Shown: positions 580-8,571 of the stretch, piece after piece
Layout of the letters: every line of letters starts with the position of its first letter
Position numbering within the stretch: position 1 is the first letter of the stretch
DNA from: Anaerolineales bacterium
Lineage (GTDB): Bacteria; Chloroflexota; Anaerolineae; Aggregatilineales; UBA2796
Length of the DNA: 64,000 nt
Assembly: GCA_015075625.1 (NCBI GenBank)
Contig: JABTTZ010000003.1
Coordinates: 124,001 to 188,000, forward strand
Reading direction: 5' to 3'
Program-made: the position numbers and the translations under genes
Notes under the pieces: generated by a model
Databases searched by the model: none
What the model was told of the DNA's origin: nothing
The model's input: the letters and a program-made list of their open reading frames with translations, nothing else

Positions 580-3500
580 ATGTCGCAAGAGATCATCGCC
601 GCCCTTGAAGAGCGTGTTCACGAACTGGAAAAAGCCCTTTTCCTCAGCCAAGAGGAAATCGCCCATCTCACGGAAAATGCCCTCTCCCGCGAGGATCACA
701 TCCGCCGTCGGGAAACCTCTATCCTTGCGCTGTATACCGAGATAGAGGCACTCAGCGAGGCACACGCCGCTGAACGGGATGCCCTCCAAGCGCGACTGGA
801 GATGCTTCGTCTAACGTTGGAACAGAAAGACCTCGCCCTGAGCGAGGGGGCGTTCTACGCTGAATCCCTTGAGGCAGCGCGGTTGGAAAAAGAAGATGAG
901 ATGGAAGCACTCCGCCGTCAGCTTGCCGGCGTGACGAAGGTGGCGGCAAAACGCCACGCGCCGCCCGTCCTTCTTCCCCCTAACCGCAACCCAACGCACG
1001 ACGGCTCAATTCCCGCTGAGGCAACGCTTGTTTGCACTGTTGCCGCCAAAAATTACCTTGCCGCTGTGCGCGTCTTTATGGCGTCTCTCCAAGCCTATAA
1101 CCCCGCTGTTGTGCCGATTTTGCTTTTGGTCGATGAACCAGACGGGGCGTTTGACCCTGCCGTCGAGCCGTATCATATCCTTCAGGCAAAGGACATTGGC
1201 ATTCCCAATTGGGATCACTTCACATTCAAATACGATGTGCTGGAACTCAGCACAGCGGTGAAGCCCTACCTGATGGAATACCTCTTTGATACCTACGATG
1301 CGGCGAACGTGATCTACTTCGATCCCGATATTCAGGTGTTCGGCAGTTTGGATCGGCTGCGGCGCGTGTTGGAAAGTTACATGTGTGTCCTGACGCCGCA
1401 CATCACCGCCCCACTAACCGATGATCGCCACCCGAATGAACTGACGTTCCTTAGGGTGGGGACGTACAACCTCGGTTTTTGCGCCCTCAGCAAGCGCGGC
1501 GCGTGGCGCGATCTTCTCCGCTGGTGGCAAGAGCGACTCTACACGCAATGCACCCGCGAGGTAGACAAGGGGTTGTTTACCGACCAACACTGGATGGATT
1601 TTGCCCCCTCGCTGTTCCCCGGCGTCTATGTCCTGCGCGATGTCGGGTACAACGTCGCCTATTGGAACATTGCCACCCGTCCTCTCCAATGGGGAACAGC
1701 AGGCTACCTTGTCGGGGAATACCCTCTGATCTTCATGCACTTCAGCGGCTTTGAGCCGGATGAACCGGATTCGCTTTCCAAACATCAGGATCGCTTTCGC
1801 CTTTCCGAGCTTGCCCCGCCCTACCAAGAGTGTTTTTGGGAGTATGTAGCTCATCTGACGGCGCACGATTACTACACCACGCGCACCTATTCGTATGGCT
1901 TCGAGCGCTTCCCCGATGGAGTGCCCATCCCCGCGCAGCTTCGGGCGTGCCTGCGCACGACAGACCCTTACGGGCGGCGGTGGCAGAACCCCTATGACCT
2001 AACGGGGCGACGGACGTTTCGGGAATGGGCGACCCATCCCACACAGGGTTTTCGGTTCGTCTCGCCCCTCATGCTGCGCCTGTATGAGGAGCGCGTTGAC
2101 CTTCAGCGGGCGTTTCCTGCCATTCCCGGCAGCGATGAGGAGGCATACGCCCGCTGGTGGGTGAACGAATCGGAGACGATCTCGCTCTTTCACCCCGTCT
2201 ACAAGCGCCCTATCCTAGAGGCGCTGGCGATGTTCGCCCACTATACCCCCTCGGCGGACTTCATCGCCGCAACGCCCATCAGGTCCTTCCGCCAACGCCT
2301 TACCGATGCGGCAGCCTACTACCGTCGCTATCCGGTGGAGGTCAGACCGTACATCGACACGCGAAATTCCATGCCAAGCGCCTACAGCGGTCCGCGTGGG
2401 GGGGTCTATGGGACGGTCAGCCGCGCCTTGCGCCGCTTGGGTCTCATCCGTCTTGCGCGGCGCGTGATCGGGCTGCGGCTGATCCTCACCACGCGCTATT
2501 TCTTTGCCGAACGGGTCATTGATGTCCCCCACAAACCGGTGTTGTCCTCGCCGCGCCCGCCCGCACCCCCCCCACCGCCCGCAGTAGAAACGCCGCGCAA
2601 GGTGAAGAACCTCGGCATGGGGGTGAATATCGTCGGCTATGCGTACTCTGAAACGGGCGTGGGACAGCAAGCGCGAAACATGATCCGCGCCTTCGCCCAT
2701 GAAAGCTATCCCCTCTCCGTTGAGGTCATTGATGATCCCGACTCAGACCGCGCCCGCAAACAAGACCGCATGGCAGCGACCTTCCCACAGGGCATGGCGC
2801 ACGGCATATCGGTCTTTCACGCCAATGCCGATATGACCTATGCTGTGCGCAACATCCTTCCGACGGCAACCTACGAGGGACGTTACAACATTGGCTATTG
2901 GTCGTGGGAGCTAAGTACCTTCCCCACCCATTGGGATGAGGCATTCGCTATCTATGATGAAATATGGACGCCGAGCAGCTTCATCCAGAGCGCCGTCGCC
3001 GCCCGCAGCCCGCTGCCTATCTTTCGCACGCCGCCCTCGATTGAACCCGCCGTCCCACAGGGAATCACGCGGGATCATTTGCGGTTGCCGGAAGGGGCGT
3101 TTATCGTCCTCTTTATCTTTGATGCCTTCAGCATCTTCGAGCGAAAGAACCCTCTCGCCCTCGTGGATGCCTTTGAATCTGCCTTCACTGCCGACGAGCG
3201 CCGTTCCGATGTGCGCCTCGTGATCAAGGCGAACAATCTGCACACCATCCCTGAACAGCGGGCAGCCCTGAAAGCGCGGTTGAAGGATGTCAACGGGATT
3301 CTGTTGGAGGGCTACCTAAGCCGTGAGGAAACAAACGCTCTACTCAAAAGCTGCAACGTCTATGCCTCGCTCCATCGCAGCGAAGGCTATGGGCTAACCT
3401 GCGCCGAGGCAATGTATTGGGGGCGCCCCGTTGTGGCAACGGGCTATTCCGGCAACCTTGATTTTATGACGCCGGGCAACAGCCACCTTGTCCCCTATCG

Positions 3501-3735
3501 TCTTGTGCCGCTGGAGCGGGATTACCCGCCCTACGATGCGGGCGGTGTTTGGGCAGAGCCAGATAGTGCCGCCGCCGGACGTCTGCTGCGCGATGTGTTC
3601 TGCCACCCAGAGGATGCCGAACTGCGCGGCGCACAAGCCGCCGCTGACATACGGGCATGGAACAGCCCTGCCACTGTTGGCAAACTTATGGTGGAGCGCT
3701 TGCAGTTGATTCGGAGGCGGTTTGCCACAGAATGA
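580..3735 (+). CDS. Coiled-coil / dual glycosyltransferase fusion protein
   Basis: This 1051-residue protein has three parts. Residues 1-115 are charged and heptad-like, a likely coiled coil. Residues about 148-600 resemble a GT-A fold transferase, with a metal-binding DPD in VIYFDPDIQVFG. Residues about 690-1051 are a GT4-type GT-B transferase, starting at NIVGYAYSETGVGQQ and ending with the EGYGLTCAEAMYWGRPVVAT sugar-nucleotide signature. Such multi-domain transferases usually build surface polysaccharide or glycosylate proteins; the substrate cannot be read from sequence. It starts with ATG 17 nt after the upstream membrane protein. A basic stretch joins the two catalytic regions (about 610-690), followed by a proline-rich linker. 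Confidence 0.85.
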   Translation: MSQEIIAALEERVHELEKALFLSQEEIAHLTENALSREDHIRRRETSILALYTEIEALSEAHAAERDALQARLEMLRLTLEQKDLALSEGAFYAESLEAARLEKEDEMEALRRQLAGVTKVAAKRHAPPVLLPPNRNPTHDGSIPAEATLVCTVAAKNYLAAVRVFMASLQAYNPAVVPILLLVDEPDGAFDPAVEPYHILQAKDIGIPNWDHFTFKYDVLELSTAVKPYLMEYLFDTYDAANVIYFDPDIQVFGSLDRLRRVLESYMCVLTPHITAPLTDDRHPNELTFLRVGTYNLGFCALSKRGAWRDLLRWWQERLYTQCTREVDKGLFTDQHWMDFAPSLFPGVYVLRDVGYNVAYWNIATRPLQWGTAGYLVGEYPLIFMHFSGFEPDEPDSLSKHQDRFRLSELAPPYQECFWEYVAHLTAHDYYTTRTYSYGFERFPDGVPIPAQLRACLRTTDPYGRRWQNPYDLTGRRTFREWATHPTQGFRFVSPLMLRLYEERVDLQRAFPAIPGSDEEAYARWWVNESETISLFHPVYKRPILEALAMFAHYTPSADFIAATPIRSFRQRLTDAAAYYRRYPVEVRPYIDTRNSMPSAYSGPRGGVYGTVSRALRRLGLIRLARRVIGLRLILTTRYFFAERVIDVPHKPVLSSPRPPAPPPPPAVETPRKVKNLGMGVNIVGYAYSETGVGQQARNMIRAFAHESYPLSVEVIDDPDSDRARKQDRMAATFPQGMAHGISVFHANADMTYAVRNILPTATYEGRYNIGYWSWELSTFPTHWDEAFAIYDEIWTPSSFIQSAVAARSPLPIFRTPPSIEPAVPQGITRDHLRLPEGAFIVLFIFDAFSIFERKNPLALVDAFESAFTADERRSDVRLVIKANNLHTIPEQRAALKARLKDVNGILLEGYLSREETNALLKSCNVYASLHRSEGYGLTCAEAMYWGRPVVATGYSGNLDFMTPGNSHLVPYRLVPLERDYPPYDAGGVWAEPDSAAAGRLLRDVFCHPEDAELRGAQAAADIRAWNSPATVGKLMVERLQLIRRRFATE

Positions 3736-3848: not shown

Positions 3849-5837
3849 TCAGGGCTGCTCAAACCGAACAGTCAGGCTTTGCCCAATAACCGCCCCGCTC
3901 CCATCAACGACATTCTCACTGTAAAACGCCCGTCCATCGGGGGTATCGTCAAAGGTATATAACCCCAACTGCACCCCCTGAATCTCCCCGACGCGACTGG
4001 TATCGGCAAGGCAATACGTGCGAGTGAACAAATCGCCCACGCGCCAGTAGCGCCCGTTCCAAAATGTTCCATCCGCCTGCCCAATGCGCTCACCGGCGGC
4101 GTTCACAAAATGGACGGCAGCATTGAAAAAATCGGACTTGACGCTTGTTTTGGGCGAGGGCAGCACCCACAACGTCTCCAAACAGCCCTGTGCCGCTGCC
4201 CACTGTGTCCCTAAGAGGCGCACGCCGTTGGCAAAGCCTGGGAGCGTCGGGATCATCGTGTAGGGGCTGGTGTCAAGGCTGCCGCTGCGTTCTTCTAGGC
4301 GGAAACATGCTTCTGGTTCTCCGTTATCCAAACGACGGCGAGCAGGGAAAACCTCACCTATCCCGGCGCATCCATCGCGCAGCAAAAGCGCCCCTCCCGG
4401 CGGATAAGCATCCATGCCCTTATCAAGGAAACGCCGTTCGGGGAGATCATACAAGAGGACATTCCAAACGCTTGCTTGCTCATTGTAGCCCACGAACTGC
4501 CCATCCAACGCCGCCAAAACCTGTGTCGGGTTGTTTGCGTAAATTGCCTCCCGAACGGGCATGTAATAACCGAGGGGAATCCCAAACGCGCCCGTTGTGG
4601 CGTAGGTATTCAGGAAATTCAAGAGGGCGATCACATACCACAGGCTAAGCGTGACGACGACTGCCGCCGTCGCGCCGAACACACCCCACCCAATAAGGCG
4701 GGATCGGGCGGGAAACCGCTGAAGTATATCCCGCACCGCGCTCCCTAAAAGAATGTACGCCGCTGGAAACATCGGAATCAAATAGTGGGCATACATGGGT
4801 GTCCATGTAGGGGTGAACGCCAGCGGCGGAACAACCACCCACAACAGAAGCACTCGGTCTATCGTAGCATGGGCATCCCGCCGCCGGAGACTCCGTGCCG
4901 CAGCCCACAGCGCCGCGCCAACCACTGCCGTCGAGAGGGCATGAAAGATCGGGTAGGCGGGGGGGACTGTTTTCAGAAATTCGCCGTACATTTCTGCACC
5001 GGCAAAGGCGTGAATTTCTGCCCCGCCAATGGTCAGCCAAGCCTCTTGCCAAGCCTGAGCGCTCAGCGTCAGCGGGCGGCGCTCCCCTCGTGGGGCAAGG
5101 ATGCGCCCTACCGTCTCTGGGTTGAGAAGGGATGCCCGCACTGCACCCACTGCATAGGGAAGCACCGCCAACCCCGCGAGGACGATGCTCAGCCAAAACG
5201 CCCGCGAAAGCCGCTTACGCCCTGCCCACACCATATAGAGCGTGGCAGGGATCAGGACGAACGCGGCGTAATGGATTTGTCCGGTAACTGCCAAGAGGGG
5301 TAGGTGAACCCACTGCGCCCATTTCTTCCCCTCAATAAAGCCCAAGACTCCCGTGAAGATCACCCCCACAACAAATGGCGGGAGCATCTCTTGCGCCCAG
5401 ATCTTGCGCGAAAACATGACCGACCAGGGGGCGGCGGCAAAGATCACGCCGGCAAAGATTGCCGCCGTGACGCCGTAATAGCGGCGGGCAAAAAGGTAGG
5501 TAAAGGCGACAGCAATCACGTTCAGCAGCCCGATGTACTGCGTCGCCACGCGGGGATCGCTGCTCAGCAGGTAGGGCAGCGCCAAAATGTAGACATTCAC
5601 GGGGGCGTTGCGCACGCCAACTGAGGAATCGATTCCCAAGAGGGGAAAATCCCGTCCGCGTGCCATGTCCAGCGCCATAAGGGAGAGATTCGCCTCGTCT
5701 TGTTTAAATTCGACCGCGCCCGGCATTCCCATGCGCAGTGCGGCAGCAAGGAGGATGATCCCAATGAAGGCGAGCCACTCAAGGCGCGTTGGGCGGGTGG
5801 TGTAGGGGGTGATTGGGTTTGTCGTTGTGTTAGTCAT
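3849..5837 (-). CDS. GT-C family (GT39/ArnT-like) membrane glycosyltransferase
   Basis: This 662-residue multi-pass membrane protein has about ten hydrophobic segments in its first 430 residues, then a soluble C-terminal domain. The first extracytoplasmic loop holds KQDEANLSLMALDMARG, the acidic DE-type motif typical of polyprenyl-phosphate-sugar-dependent GT-C enzymes. It probably transfers a sugar from a lipid-linked donor outside the membrane. The ATG overlaps the end of the methyltransferase gene by 8 nt, so the two should be translationally coupled despite unrelated functions. The acceptor is unknown. Confidence 0.8.
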   Translation of the reverse strand: MTNTTTNPITPYTTRPTRLEWLAFIGIILLAAALRMGMPGAVEFKQDEANLSLMALDMARGRDFPLLGIDSSVGVRNAPVNVYILALPYLLSSDPRVATQYIGLLNVIAVAFTYLFARRYYGVTAAIFAGVIFAAAPWSVMFSRKIWAQEMLPPFVVGVIFTGVLGFIEGKKWAQWVHLPLLAVTGQIHYAAFVLIPATLYMVWAGRKRLSRAFWLSIVLAGLAVLPYAVGAVRASLLNPETVGRILAPRGERRPLTLSAQAWQEAWLTIGGAEIHAFAGAEMYGEFLKTVPPAYPIFHALSTAVVGAALWAAARSLRRRDAHATIDRVLLLWVVVPPLAFTPTWTPMYAHYLIPMFPAAYILLGSAVRDILQRFPARSRLIGWGVFGATAAVVVTLSLWYVIALLNFLNTYATTGAFGIPLGYYMPVREAIYANNPTQVLAALDGQFVGYNEQASVWNVLLYDLPERRFLDKGMDAYPPGGALLLRDGCAGIGEVFPARRRLDNGEPEACFRLEERSGSLDTSPYTMIPTLPGFANGVRLLGTQWAAAQGCLETLWVLPSPKTSVKSDFFNAAVHFVNAAGERIGQADGTFWNGRYWRVGDLFTRTYCLADTSRVGEIQGVQLGLYTFDDTPDGRAFYSENVVDGSGAVIGQSLTVRFEQP

Positions 5838-6936
5838 TGTCTACAGCGGGCAATCCCTCAAAGGCTTGGCGGACAGTCTTAAATGGTGGGCGTCCAAACA
5901 GGTCTCCTGATCGGCTGTGGGTTGGTTCGGGCAAACTCGCCTGTACATCTAGCCCTTTTTTTGTGCCAAAAAAGATCAAGCGGTGACGCTTTTGAGCATT
6001 CCCATAATAAGCAGAATTCAAGACGCGGTGATCGACGTCGTAACCTAGTTGATCCATCCTATGAAGGATGGTTTCAAGCAGTTTTCCTTTGGCAATTGCC
6101 TTCAGGTTGGAGACATTTTCCATTAGGAAAAGTGGGGGCGAAATATCCTCCACAAAGCGAAGAAATTCAAAAATGAGTTCACCGCGTGGATCATATGTTC
6201 CTTGTTGTTTTCCCGCTTGGCTAAACGCCTGACAAGGCGGTCCGCCATAGATCAACGAAATCGCAGAGCGATCAACCCCACAAGCCTCTAAAATGGTGCG
6301 GGGAGAGAGCCTTTCAATGGCTTCTTGAAAGACGCGCATGGTGTCGCCAAAGTACCCACGCAAGGTAGCACAGCGATCTTTTTCATGTTCCACACAAGCC
6401 ACGGTTTGCCACCGTTCACTTCCCGCGCCACGCACCTGATGGGCGGCAACGTCCAACCCCCCTGCCCCACTAAACAGGCTGAGGGCAGAAAAGACGGCTT
6501 GTTTCGGTACTAGGTTACTAGCCACCCTCAAGAGGGCATCGAACAAGGCTCGTCCTAACTCAATTGGAACGGCATCCCCTACTTGCTGCTGAACACTAGT
6601 CACTGTTCCTTTGAACTCAAGATCATCAGGAAAACCCTGCAAGCGTGCCGCTTCGCGGGGGGTGATGAACCGATCTTCAAAAGGATGGACAAATTTGTTG
6701 TAGATATACCCCGTTACTGTCAATGAGGGTTGATCAGGATCAAGACGGATCATCCGCAAATTGGGACCGCCTTGCCGTGTCGGATCATCGTTCACATAAA
6801 ACCGAAAACTGTCATGCCACAGCGCCTCAGGCAAATCCTGCATTTTTTGCCCAATCTTCAAGGCTTGGATACGACTGAGAACGGTTACCCCCGCTTTACG
6901 CGCTTGGTGGTTTGTGATTGTTTTTGGTTTATCCAT
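5830..6936 (-). CDS. DNA (cytosine-5-)-methyltransferase, circularly permuted
   Basis: This 368-residue C5-cytosine methyltransferase has an unusual motif order. Residues 1-60 resemble the part that normally follows the target-recognition domain (ITNHQARK, IQALKIGQKMQDLPEALW). Motif IX is at 89-104 (RFITPREAARLQGFPD) and motif X at 117-124 (QQVGDAVP). Only then come motif I at 152-161 (LSLFSGAGGL), motif IV at 231-240 with catalytic Cys235 (GGPPCQAFSQ), ENV at 273-275 and motif VIII QKRHRL. The protein ends at TVRQAFEGLPAVDND, where a canonical enzyme would enter its recognition region. All key residues are present, so it is probably active. No restriction endonuclease gene lies beside it. 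M.BssHII is a known example with motifs IX-X first. Confidence 0.93.
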   Translation of the reverse strand: MDKPKTITNHQARKAGVTVLSRIQALKIGQKMQDLPEALWHDSFRFYVNDDPTRQGGPNLRMIRLDPDQPSLTVTGYIYNKFVHPFEDRFITPREAARLQGFPDDLEFKGTVTSVQQQVGDAVPIELGRALFDALLRVASNLVPKQAVFSALSLFSGAGGLDVAAHQVRGAGSERWQTVACVEHEKDRCATLRGYFGDTMRVFQEAIERLSPRTILEACGVDRSAISLIYGGPPCQAFSQAGKQQGTYDPRGELIFEFLRFVEDISPPLFLMENVSNLKAIAKGKLLETILHRMDQLGYDVDHRVLNSAYYGNAQKRHRLIFFGTKKGLDVQASLPEPTHSRSGDLFGRPPFKTVRQAFEGLPAVDND

Positions 6937-7068
6937 AGCCCCTACTCAAAACGTAAATAAATCATTGATCCAGAGATCATGAGAGATTATTTCAGTTAGG
7001 GTGACAATACCATCAAAGAGATTATAGAACCCTTTCGTAGGGGCTTCATTCTCTGGAGGAAAGTATAA

Positions 7069-7490
7069 TGACCCCCGAAAACGAGACCACAAGCTAAGGT
7101 GGAAAAAGTATAATCAGATTAGCTTGTGGAGGACAGGAAATAAGTGGAAAACGCAGACAACATAGCGACGAGTTCAAATTCAAAGTAGCCCTGGAAGCGA
7201 GCAAAGGGCATAAGACCGTCAACGAACTTGCCAGTGAGTACAAACTGCATCCGACTCAGATCAGCAGTTGGAAGAAACTGCTGCTAGAGGAAGGAGCAGG
7301 GGTGTTCAGCCGCAATACAAGTTCCAGGCAGCAGGAGCAGTCCGTGCGTGAGGCGGAACTTTATGAACAGATTGGGCGGCTCAAGATGGAACTGGAGTGG
7401 CTGAAAAAAAGCTGCCCAGTTCAGTTGAGAGGAGGCGTATACTGTATCGTACGCGCCGCCCCTAACGCATGGGCGATCTACTGATCCGGT
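7069..7490 (+). mobile_element. IS3-family insertion sequence remnant (left end)
   Basis: The left end probably starts at the TG at 7069 (TGACCCCCGAAAACGAGACC), matching the TG-initiated ends of IS3 elements. An 11-bp stem, CCACAAGCTAA (about 7087) with TTAGCTTGTGG (about 7119), lies ahead of the OrfA frame. OrfA is followed by a slippery A7 run (7404-7410), as expected for programmed -1 frameshifting into OrfB. OrfB and the right inverted repeat are missing, so the copy is dead. The right limit is approximate. Confidence 0.75.
7140..7484 (+). pseudogene. IS3-family transposase OrfA, truncated remnant
   Basis: The frame reads SGKRRQHSDEFKFKVALEAS, then KTVNELASEYKLHPTQISSWKK, a helix-turn-helix typical of IS3 OrfA. 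It ends with a leucine-zipper-like EAELYEQIGRLKMELEWLKKS. The codon where ATG is expected, after GGAGG (7127-7131), is ATA at 7140, so the start codon looks mutated; the first in-frame ATG is at 7302. After the KKS box at the A7 run, the frame continues into unrelated sequence. OrfB is absent. Confidence 0.75.
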
Positions 7491-7501
7491 CTAGCCATGC
7501 C

Positions 7502-8485
7502 TCACAGCCACCCCTTCTTCCGAAAGAAGTAGACCAATCCCAGGGCAATAGCAACCATCAGCCCTAAGGCGAAGGGATAGCCATTTCCCCAACGAAGTTC
7601 GGGCATGATATCGAAGTTCATCCCGTACACCCCCGCCACAAGCGTCACCGACATGAGGATGATTGAGCTTGCCGTCAGCACGCGCATCGTCTGATTCATC
7701 CGGTTGGAGGCAATCGAAAGGTAGGAATCCAACGCGCTGCTTAGCAGGTCGCGGTAGGTATCGATGCTGTCAATCACCCGGACAATGTGATCGTAGACGT
7801 CTTGAAAATAGACAATGGCTTCCAACTCAATGATCGGCTTTTCCCGCCGCAAGAGGACGTTCACCACATCACGGGCGGGGGCAACCACCCGCCGCATGGC
7901 AAGCAAATCTTTTTTCAGCGAGAATAGTTCGGGAAGTGCCTTCTCATCAAAGCTCTCGAAGATGCGCCCTTCAATGCCCTCCACCACTTCAGCAAGTTGG
8001 TCGATCACCGGAAAATAGTTATCGACAATGGCATCCATCAAGGCATAAATCACCCCGCCAATGTGATGCCCTACCACCTGATGGTTGTTTTGCCAGCGCT
8101 GCACGGTCTGCTCAACTTCGGGAATCTGCCCCTTGTGGACGGTGACGAGGTAATTTTTTCCGACAAACATCGCCACTTGACGGACGCCGATCATCTTATC
8201 TTTCGGGTCGTGTGCCGCCGCCGGGCGGTAACGCACCGCATAAAAGACGATGAAATAGTAACCCTCATAGCTATCGATCTTCGGCTTTTGGGGGTGAATG
8301 GCGTCTTCGAGGGCGAGAGGATGAAAGTTGAATACCTCCCGCAGGCGTTTCAAATCCTCGTTGTCGGCGTGTTCAATGTCGTACCAAACAAGGTTGCCCG
8401 GCTCAGCAATGACCTCTGCAAGATGATTCGGGTCGGTAATTGGGCGGGCTTCCCCCGCTGCGGTGGTCAGGATGATGTGGTGCAT
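7502..8485 (-). CDS. corA: CorA-family magnesium/cobalt transporter
   Basis: CorA forms homopentameric inner-membrane channels for Mg2+ (also Co2+ or Ni2+). The N-terminal two thirds are a soluble alpha/beta and long-helix domain. The C-terminus has two transmembrane segments with the signature YGMNF between them and a short basic tail, FRKKGWL. ATG at 8485 is preferred over the upstream TTG at 8509, because GGGGAGGGG lies about 14 nt before it, inside the extended frame. This gives about 327 residues, normal for the family. It stands alone, between the IS remnant and the TIGR01906-type gene. Confidence 0.93.
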
Positions 8486-8571
8486 ACGGTAGCGGTATCC
8501 CCTCCCCAACGTAGGGCTATGGCAGAATCATTCTAACATTCTTTGGCGCGGGATTTCTAGGGGGTCTGCTT

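Follow-up and report, generated by a model that had tools for sequence, protein, structure and literature searches.

A naturally permuted C5 cytosine methyltransferase beside the 3' scrap of its partner endonuclease gene in a Chloroflexota genome

The analysed stretch, hereafter the window, comprises 64,000 nucleotides of a Chloroflexota genome (contig JABTTZ010000003.1; G000 in our sample). On its minus strand, positions 6936..5830 form a single open frame of 368 codons that encodes a C5-cytosine DNA methyltransferase, and immediately upstream lie a scrap of an endonuclease gene and a fragment of an insertion sequence (IS). The motif names I, IV, VI, VIII, IX and X are those that we take to apply, and the element presumably belongs to IS3, a name given from the look of its orfA. 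The features are as follows.

5830..6936, minus strand: circularly permuted C5-cytosine DNA methyltransferase, 368 aa (one open frame, crossed profile order, match to L020, structure model)
6520..6912, minus strand: its N-terminal part, residues about 9-139, with the recognition segment, motif IX (REAARLQGFPDD) and motif X (QVGDAVP) (L020 239-373; PF00145 256-322)
5848..6495, minus strand: its C-terminal part, residues about 148-363, with motifs I (SLFSGAGGLD), IV (GGPPCQ), VI (MENV) and VIII (QKRHR) (PF00145, L020, structure match)
6937..6945, minus strand: nine-base gap from the endonuclease stop to the methyltransferase ATG (GTAGGGGCT, ribosome-binding-site-like) (sequence)
6946..7060, minus strand, upstream edge approximate: endonuclease remnant, the last about 37 codons plus the stop (6948-6946) (L034 query and profile)
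7061..7410, plus strand: truncated IS3-like element with its left end and an orfA (HTH_Tnp_1) that points the opposite way (PF01527, E 2.5e-7)

Downstream, a mannosyltransferase-like frame (3849-5837) overlaps the 3' end of the methyltransferase gene by eight bases (5830-5837) if its first ATG is used.

The original prediction placed motifs IX and X ahead of motifs I to VIII at 5830-6936 and gave no strand; the coordinates are correct, the gene is on the minus strand, and the motif order is borne out by crossed matches within one frame. The protein scores 200.8 bits against PF00145 (cut-off 22; protein E 5.1e-59), and the better of the two matched stretches lies at residues 150-335 and covers positions 2-172 of the 324-position profile. 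When the genome is searched with the same profile, the N-terminal part corresponds to positions 256-322 (E 2.7e-12) and the C-terminal part to positions 2-174 (E 1e-44), and both matches fall inside one 371-codon open frame. The phmmer comparison with M.HaeIII is crossed likewise, with query residues 151-338 aligned to 3-174 and residues 60-130 aligned to 242-315. This crossed order shows that the two halves of the methyltransferase are rotated, which is visible in the Pfam profile coordinates without any motif labels and lies far beyond chance. Residues about 1-140 comprise the recognition segment and motifs IX and X, and residues about 148-363 comprise motifs I to VIII, with the SAM-binding and catalytic motifs present (SLFSGAGG at 153-160, GGPPCQ at 231-236 and MENV at 272-275).

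L020, a canonical Chloroflexota enzyme, carries the same two halves in swapped order. Its residues 239-373 align with methyltransferase residues 9-137 (44%) and its residues 29-227 with residues 149-363 (34%); residues ~9-139 are the counterpart of the C-terminal part of canonical enzymes, and residues ~148-363 that of the N-terminal part. The match of the N-terminal half spans the DH...R...GQ.M.DLPE.LWHDS segment through motif X, and L020 holds this counterpart directly after its motif VIII. Since L020 239-373 follows the I-VIII region and aligns with query residues 9-137, the recognition segment sits at the N terminus of the window enzyme and is not missing. The same comparison agrees with two earlier proposals, that the protein ends where a normal enzyme enters its target-recognition domain and that its N-terminal segment resembles the post-recognition part of standard enzymes. 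Both halves, including the segment between motifs VIII and IX, match canonical C5 methyltransferases whose recognition segment is short, such as L020 (G045, Chloroflexota).

The AlphaFold2 model (pLDDT 91.8, pTM 0.91) favors the normal closure for which a structure prediction had been proposed. In the model, the I-VIII part superimposes on M.HaeIII (1dct) with Z 22.0 and 1.3 Å over 185 residues, and Foldseek agrees. The window enzyme is like M.HaeIII and M.HhaI (1dct, 2uz4) in this catalytic domain, but these two have the canonical order and a different recognition domain. Because the structure matching is bound to sequence order and covers little of the N-terminal half, normal closure rests on the pTM and pLDDT values together with the L020 sequence match, from which we infer that the two halves would close into one fold like that of a normal C5 methyltransferase.

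The enzyme has the Type H arrangement: its N terminus falls in the variable region that follows motif VIII, and motifs IX and X come ahead of I to VIII. The comparisons of sequence support the assignment of 6936..5830 (-) as a natural circularly permuted C5 methyltransferase of M.BssHII-type topology. According to a 2018 survey (PMC5944983), five natural permuted enzymes are named and 22 further ones are in REBASE (27 sequences), all of them are cut in the variable region, and most are Type H, for example M.BssHII, M.Alw26I, M2.Eco31IC, M.Esp3I and M2.BsaI. Among the papers listed by our literature searches there was no other survey of natural permuted enzymes. In M.BssHII and the other Type H enzymes, as in the window enzyme, the protein starts between motif VIII and the recognition domain, and motifs IX and X precede I to VIII; the window methyltransferase's family likewise partners a Type II restriction endonuclease. 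The likeness is one of topology, and the window locus differs in that its endonuclease gene is a 3' scrap. The permuted arrangement is already known; what is new is its genomic context with this scrap.

Relatives of the window methyltransferase were examined in 44 loci besides the window's own: L005-L007 from 400 genomes of the phylum, 38 loci from genome contigs, and one each from a viral contig, a Vibrio phage and an Acinetobacter plasmid (L005 and L036 appear to be one locus). Among the matches listed for the 400 genomes, only those in G214, G272 and G110 cover both halves of the query in the permuted order. The titles of the relatives' records name Chloroflexota, Cyanobacteriota, Bacillota, Ignavibacteria, Bacteroidales, Thermoguttaceae, Gammaproteobacteria, Armatimonadetes, Omnitrophica, Kiritimatiellae and one archaeon, and single labels may be wrong because many are metagenome bins. 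In 40 of the 44 relatives one uninterrupted frame runs across the X-to-I junction in the query's order; of the remaining four, L037 and L067 stop at a contig end, and L056 and L070 carry a frameshift. Two adjacent canonical genes or an assembly join had been named as what could create the motif order, and nothing was found in favor of either. Neither accounts for the rotation, given the single open frame in the window and the same order in one frame in 40/44 relatives of many phyla, and the probability left to such an origin is negligible. M.BssHII stands as the precedent cited by the original prediction, but the rarity claimed for such permutations is relative, since this family alone accounts for 44 loci and three permuted enzymes belong to another lineage or lineages (below).

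The genes ahead of the methyltransferase cluster with one another across nearly all relative loci. To follow this partner gene, a profile of 413 positions was built from 23 partners with the window sequence excluded, and it finds the gene (product of ~410 aa) directly upstream of and co-directional with the methyltransferase in 39 of 44 relatives. Some of these matches are partial: contig ends cut L047, L052 and L056, the gene is split over two frames in L040, L044, L046 and L056, and the match covers only part of the profile in L058 and L060. The five loci without a profile match are L037 and L062 (with hardly any DNA upstream or none), L070 (a frameshifted methyltransferase with an AMP-binding enzyme upstream), the viral L072 (no partner in the 11-kb locus) and L007. 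In the last, a Chloroflexota locus of G110 (also L108), the methyltransferase is intact and no partner lies within 11 kb. The family to which the window methyltransferase belongs is widespread, and its genes almost always come with one for a restriction endonuclease.

The identification of the partner comes from PADLOC, whose model PDLC03440 (REase_II) matches 5/5 partners tested (E 8.6e-35 to 6e-145). Pfam has no match for the six partners tested, no usable NCBIfam model was found, and no solved relative was found by sequence. In the partner alignment D142, E159 and K161 (L034 numbering; D...ExK) are invariant in 23/23, and these residues fit a PD-(D/E)XK nuclease. The fold matches for a model of the L034 partner (pLDDT 86.3) are weak: Foldseek returns none at E <= 0.001, the best VIA row is Cdn1 (Z 7.5, 6.3 Å rmsd), and restriction enzymes follow with PfoI at Z 5.2, MspJI at 4.4, HindIII at 4.1, and SwaI and HincII at 3.0. 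When used as a query, the L034 partner has exactly one match each in the phage and plasmid collections, and these two records (a Vibrio phage and an Acinetobacter plasmid) are the ones with the best methyltransferase match. The phage record, a 14.4-kb Vinavirales phage of Vibrio (L073, PQ189389.1), carries both the nuclease-like gene and the permuted methyltransferase gene complete at 1370-3555, the two overlapping by 4 bases.

No intact endonuclease gene lies beside the window methyltransferase, and the window holds no complete Type II restriction-modification (R-M) system. The original prediction that no endonuclease is adjacent holds for an intact gene, but it misses the 3' scrap at 6946 to about 7060. 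The partner profile matches 6949-7113 with its positions 381-413 of 413 (E 3.8e-7), the sole significant match among 2171 window pieces. The L034 partner matches the whole window genome at a single place, 6949-7092 (-), with its residues 362-409 of 409 (E 8.4e-4). The remnant frame reads ...NLFDGIVTLTEIISHDLWINDLFT, followed by F and the stop at 6948-6946, and it represents the C-terminal end of the PDLC03440-type partner family. Neither a second copy of the partner gene nor one of the remnant/IS stretch is found elsewhere in the window genome. A methyltransferase that was always solitary, regulatory or phage-borne and protective, with the upstream scrap a chance match, would have parallels in the solitary relatives L007/L108 and the viral L072 (no endonuclease in 11 kb). 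However, the scrap is the only significant match in the window, is the exact C-terminal end of the partner family in frame with its stop, and lies at the place and on the strand where 39 relatives keep the endonuclease gene, which makes such a history very improbable.

The orfA fragment abuts the remnant at about 7060, and nothing like orfB is found between orfA and the CorA gene (7502-8509). Related elements give 12 matches in 7 other Chloroflexota genomes of the 400; all lie within window positions 7060-7429, and five of the 12 end at 7410. Homologues of the two genes on either side occur in related genomes, but these genomes did not show an empty site: in the same-genus G400 the homologues are on different contigs, and none of the four stretches compared (L102-L105) holds both.

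The GC3 of the methyltransferase gene is 0.474, compared with 0.67-0.68 in four neighbours, and no full-length match is found in 40 relatives, including one same-genus and nine same-family genomes; the two observations fit a horizontal arrival. We therefore favor, at a probability of roughly 0.82, a history in which a Type II R-M system arrived by horizontal transfer and was later stripped of its nuclease by an IS-associated deletion, which left a solitary, most likely active and normally folding permuted methyltransferase. An operon with the endonuclease gene first and the methyltransferase gene directly behind would have entered a Chloroflexota genome. The endonuclease gene would then have been destroyed in an event involving the IS3-like element, leaving its last ~37 codons against the truncated orfA; the IS fragment could also postdate the loss. 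The surviving methyltransferase presumably works as one fold, in which the N-terminal part holds the recognition segment and motif X and the C-terminal half binds SAM and carries out catalysis, and it most likely continues to methylate a short target in host DNA. This methylation may be harmless or of secondary use, as protection against the same restriction specificity or as an epigenetic mark. The locus is in the same state as orphan methyltransferases left by endonuclease loss, with the methyltransferase intact and the partner gone, but it keeps a scrap of the partner that documents the loss, and it is a clear fossil of an R-M system turning into a solitary methyltransferase.

The enzyme may simply not yet have decayed, being an unexpressed or inactive leftover of the R-M break that shows no visible lesions so far. 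The destruction of the upstream gene also removed the native operon start, a scan of 5700-7600 by a weak method found no sigma-70-like promoter, and none of the 40 relatives has a conserved copy. On the other side, the frame is fully open, the ribosome-binding-site-like gap is retained, and the model is of high confidence (pLDDT 91.8). Across 31 aligned proteins the window methyltransferase has no substitution of its own at otherwise invariant columns, as compared with nine in the viral L072. We consider decay unlikely on balance, and the conserved residues and the predicted structure suggest that the solitary permuted enzyme is probably active.

In three further C5 methyltransferases, motifs IX and X likewise come ahead of I to VIII: L106 (MT836831.1), L107 (Thermus phage phiLo, MH673673.1) and L229 (G441). 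They are probably one or more separate permuted lineages, two of the three being phage-borne. A quick tree was built with 71 rows, that is, the query and 70 of 78 chosen loci (L023, L026, L033 and L067 were skipped; L024, L070, L079 and L084 gave no hit or motif). The motif order was labelled by regular expression, which left 13 rows unlabelled, including L056 and L058, which are permuted by alignment to the query. The permuted label changes twice over the labelled rows, or four times when the unlabelled rows are counted as a group of their own beside the other two, and a starred branch (97) parts L106, L107 and L229 from the query's side. Being unrooted and long-branched, the tree suggests several origins but does not prove them. 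It is a tentative possibility that selection (epigenetic or anti-restriction) kept the solitary enzyme after the IS-associated nuclease loss, and that C5 permutation arose more than once, in the R-M family and in a phage/cyanobacterial lineage, each time opening the protein at the boundary of motif VIII and the recognition segment, which would mean that the cut point itself is constrained. PMC5944983 describes laboratory permutants that work with ten cut types; against these, the relatives (44 loci, many phyla, 39 with the partner gene) form a set for asking why natural permutations cut at one place.

Palindrome avoidance was computed for six genomes (G214, G272, G439, G440, G110 and G000; 180-464 kb each), and it gave no target for the methyltransferase among them. 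BssHII (G/CGCGC) and AscI are alike in sequence, as stated in PMC4081073. All six genomes have fewer GCGCGC sites than expected, at the extremes 0 against 21 and 28 against 57 (the latter in G439, which has an intact pair), and the rank of GCGCGC by z among 64 is 2 in G214, 1 in G272, 13 in G439, 23 in G440, 2 in G110 and 3 in G000. It does not stand out, because so many palindromes are depleted in all six, and there is no contrast between the holders of an intact pair and the others.

GGCC was rejected as a target: G272, with an intact pair, has 820 of 982 expected sites, and the methyltransferase family is thus not taken to act on GGCC. A literature search that combined GGCC avoidance and restriction with Chloroflexi found no paper. 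In the window genome (464 kb sampled, window included) GGCC is 25-fold depleted, with 127 found against 3106 expected, and no other 4-mer is nearly as scarce; the 64-kb window has eight of these sites. The same-family G401 has 0 of 44 expected in 11 kb, the same-genus G400 has 94 of 131, and G405 has 33 of 70. The GGCC depletion was noted in G000 and in L104.
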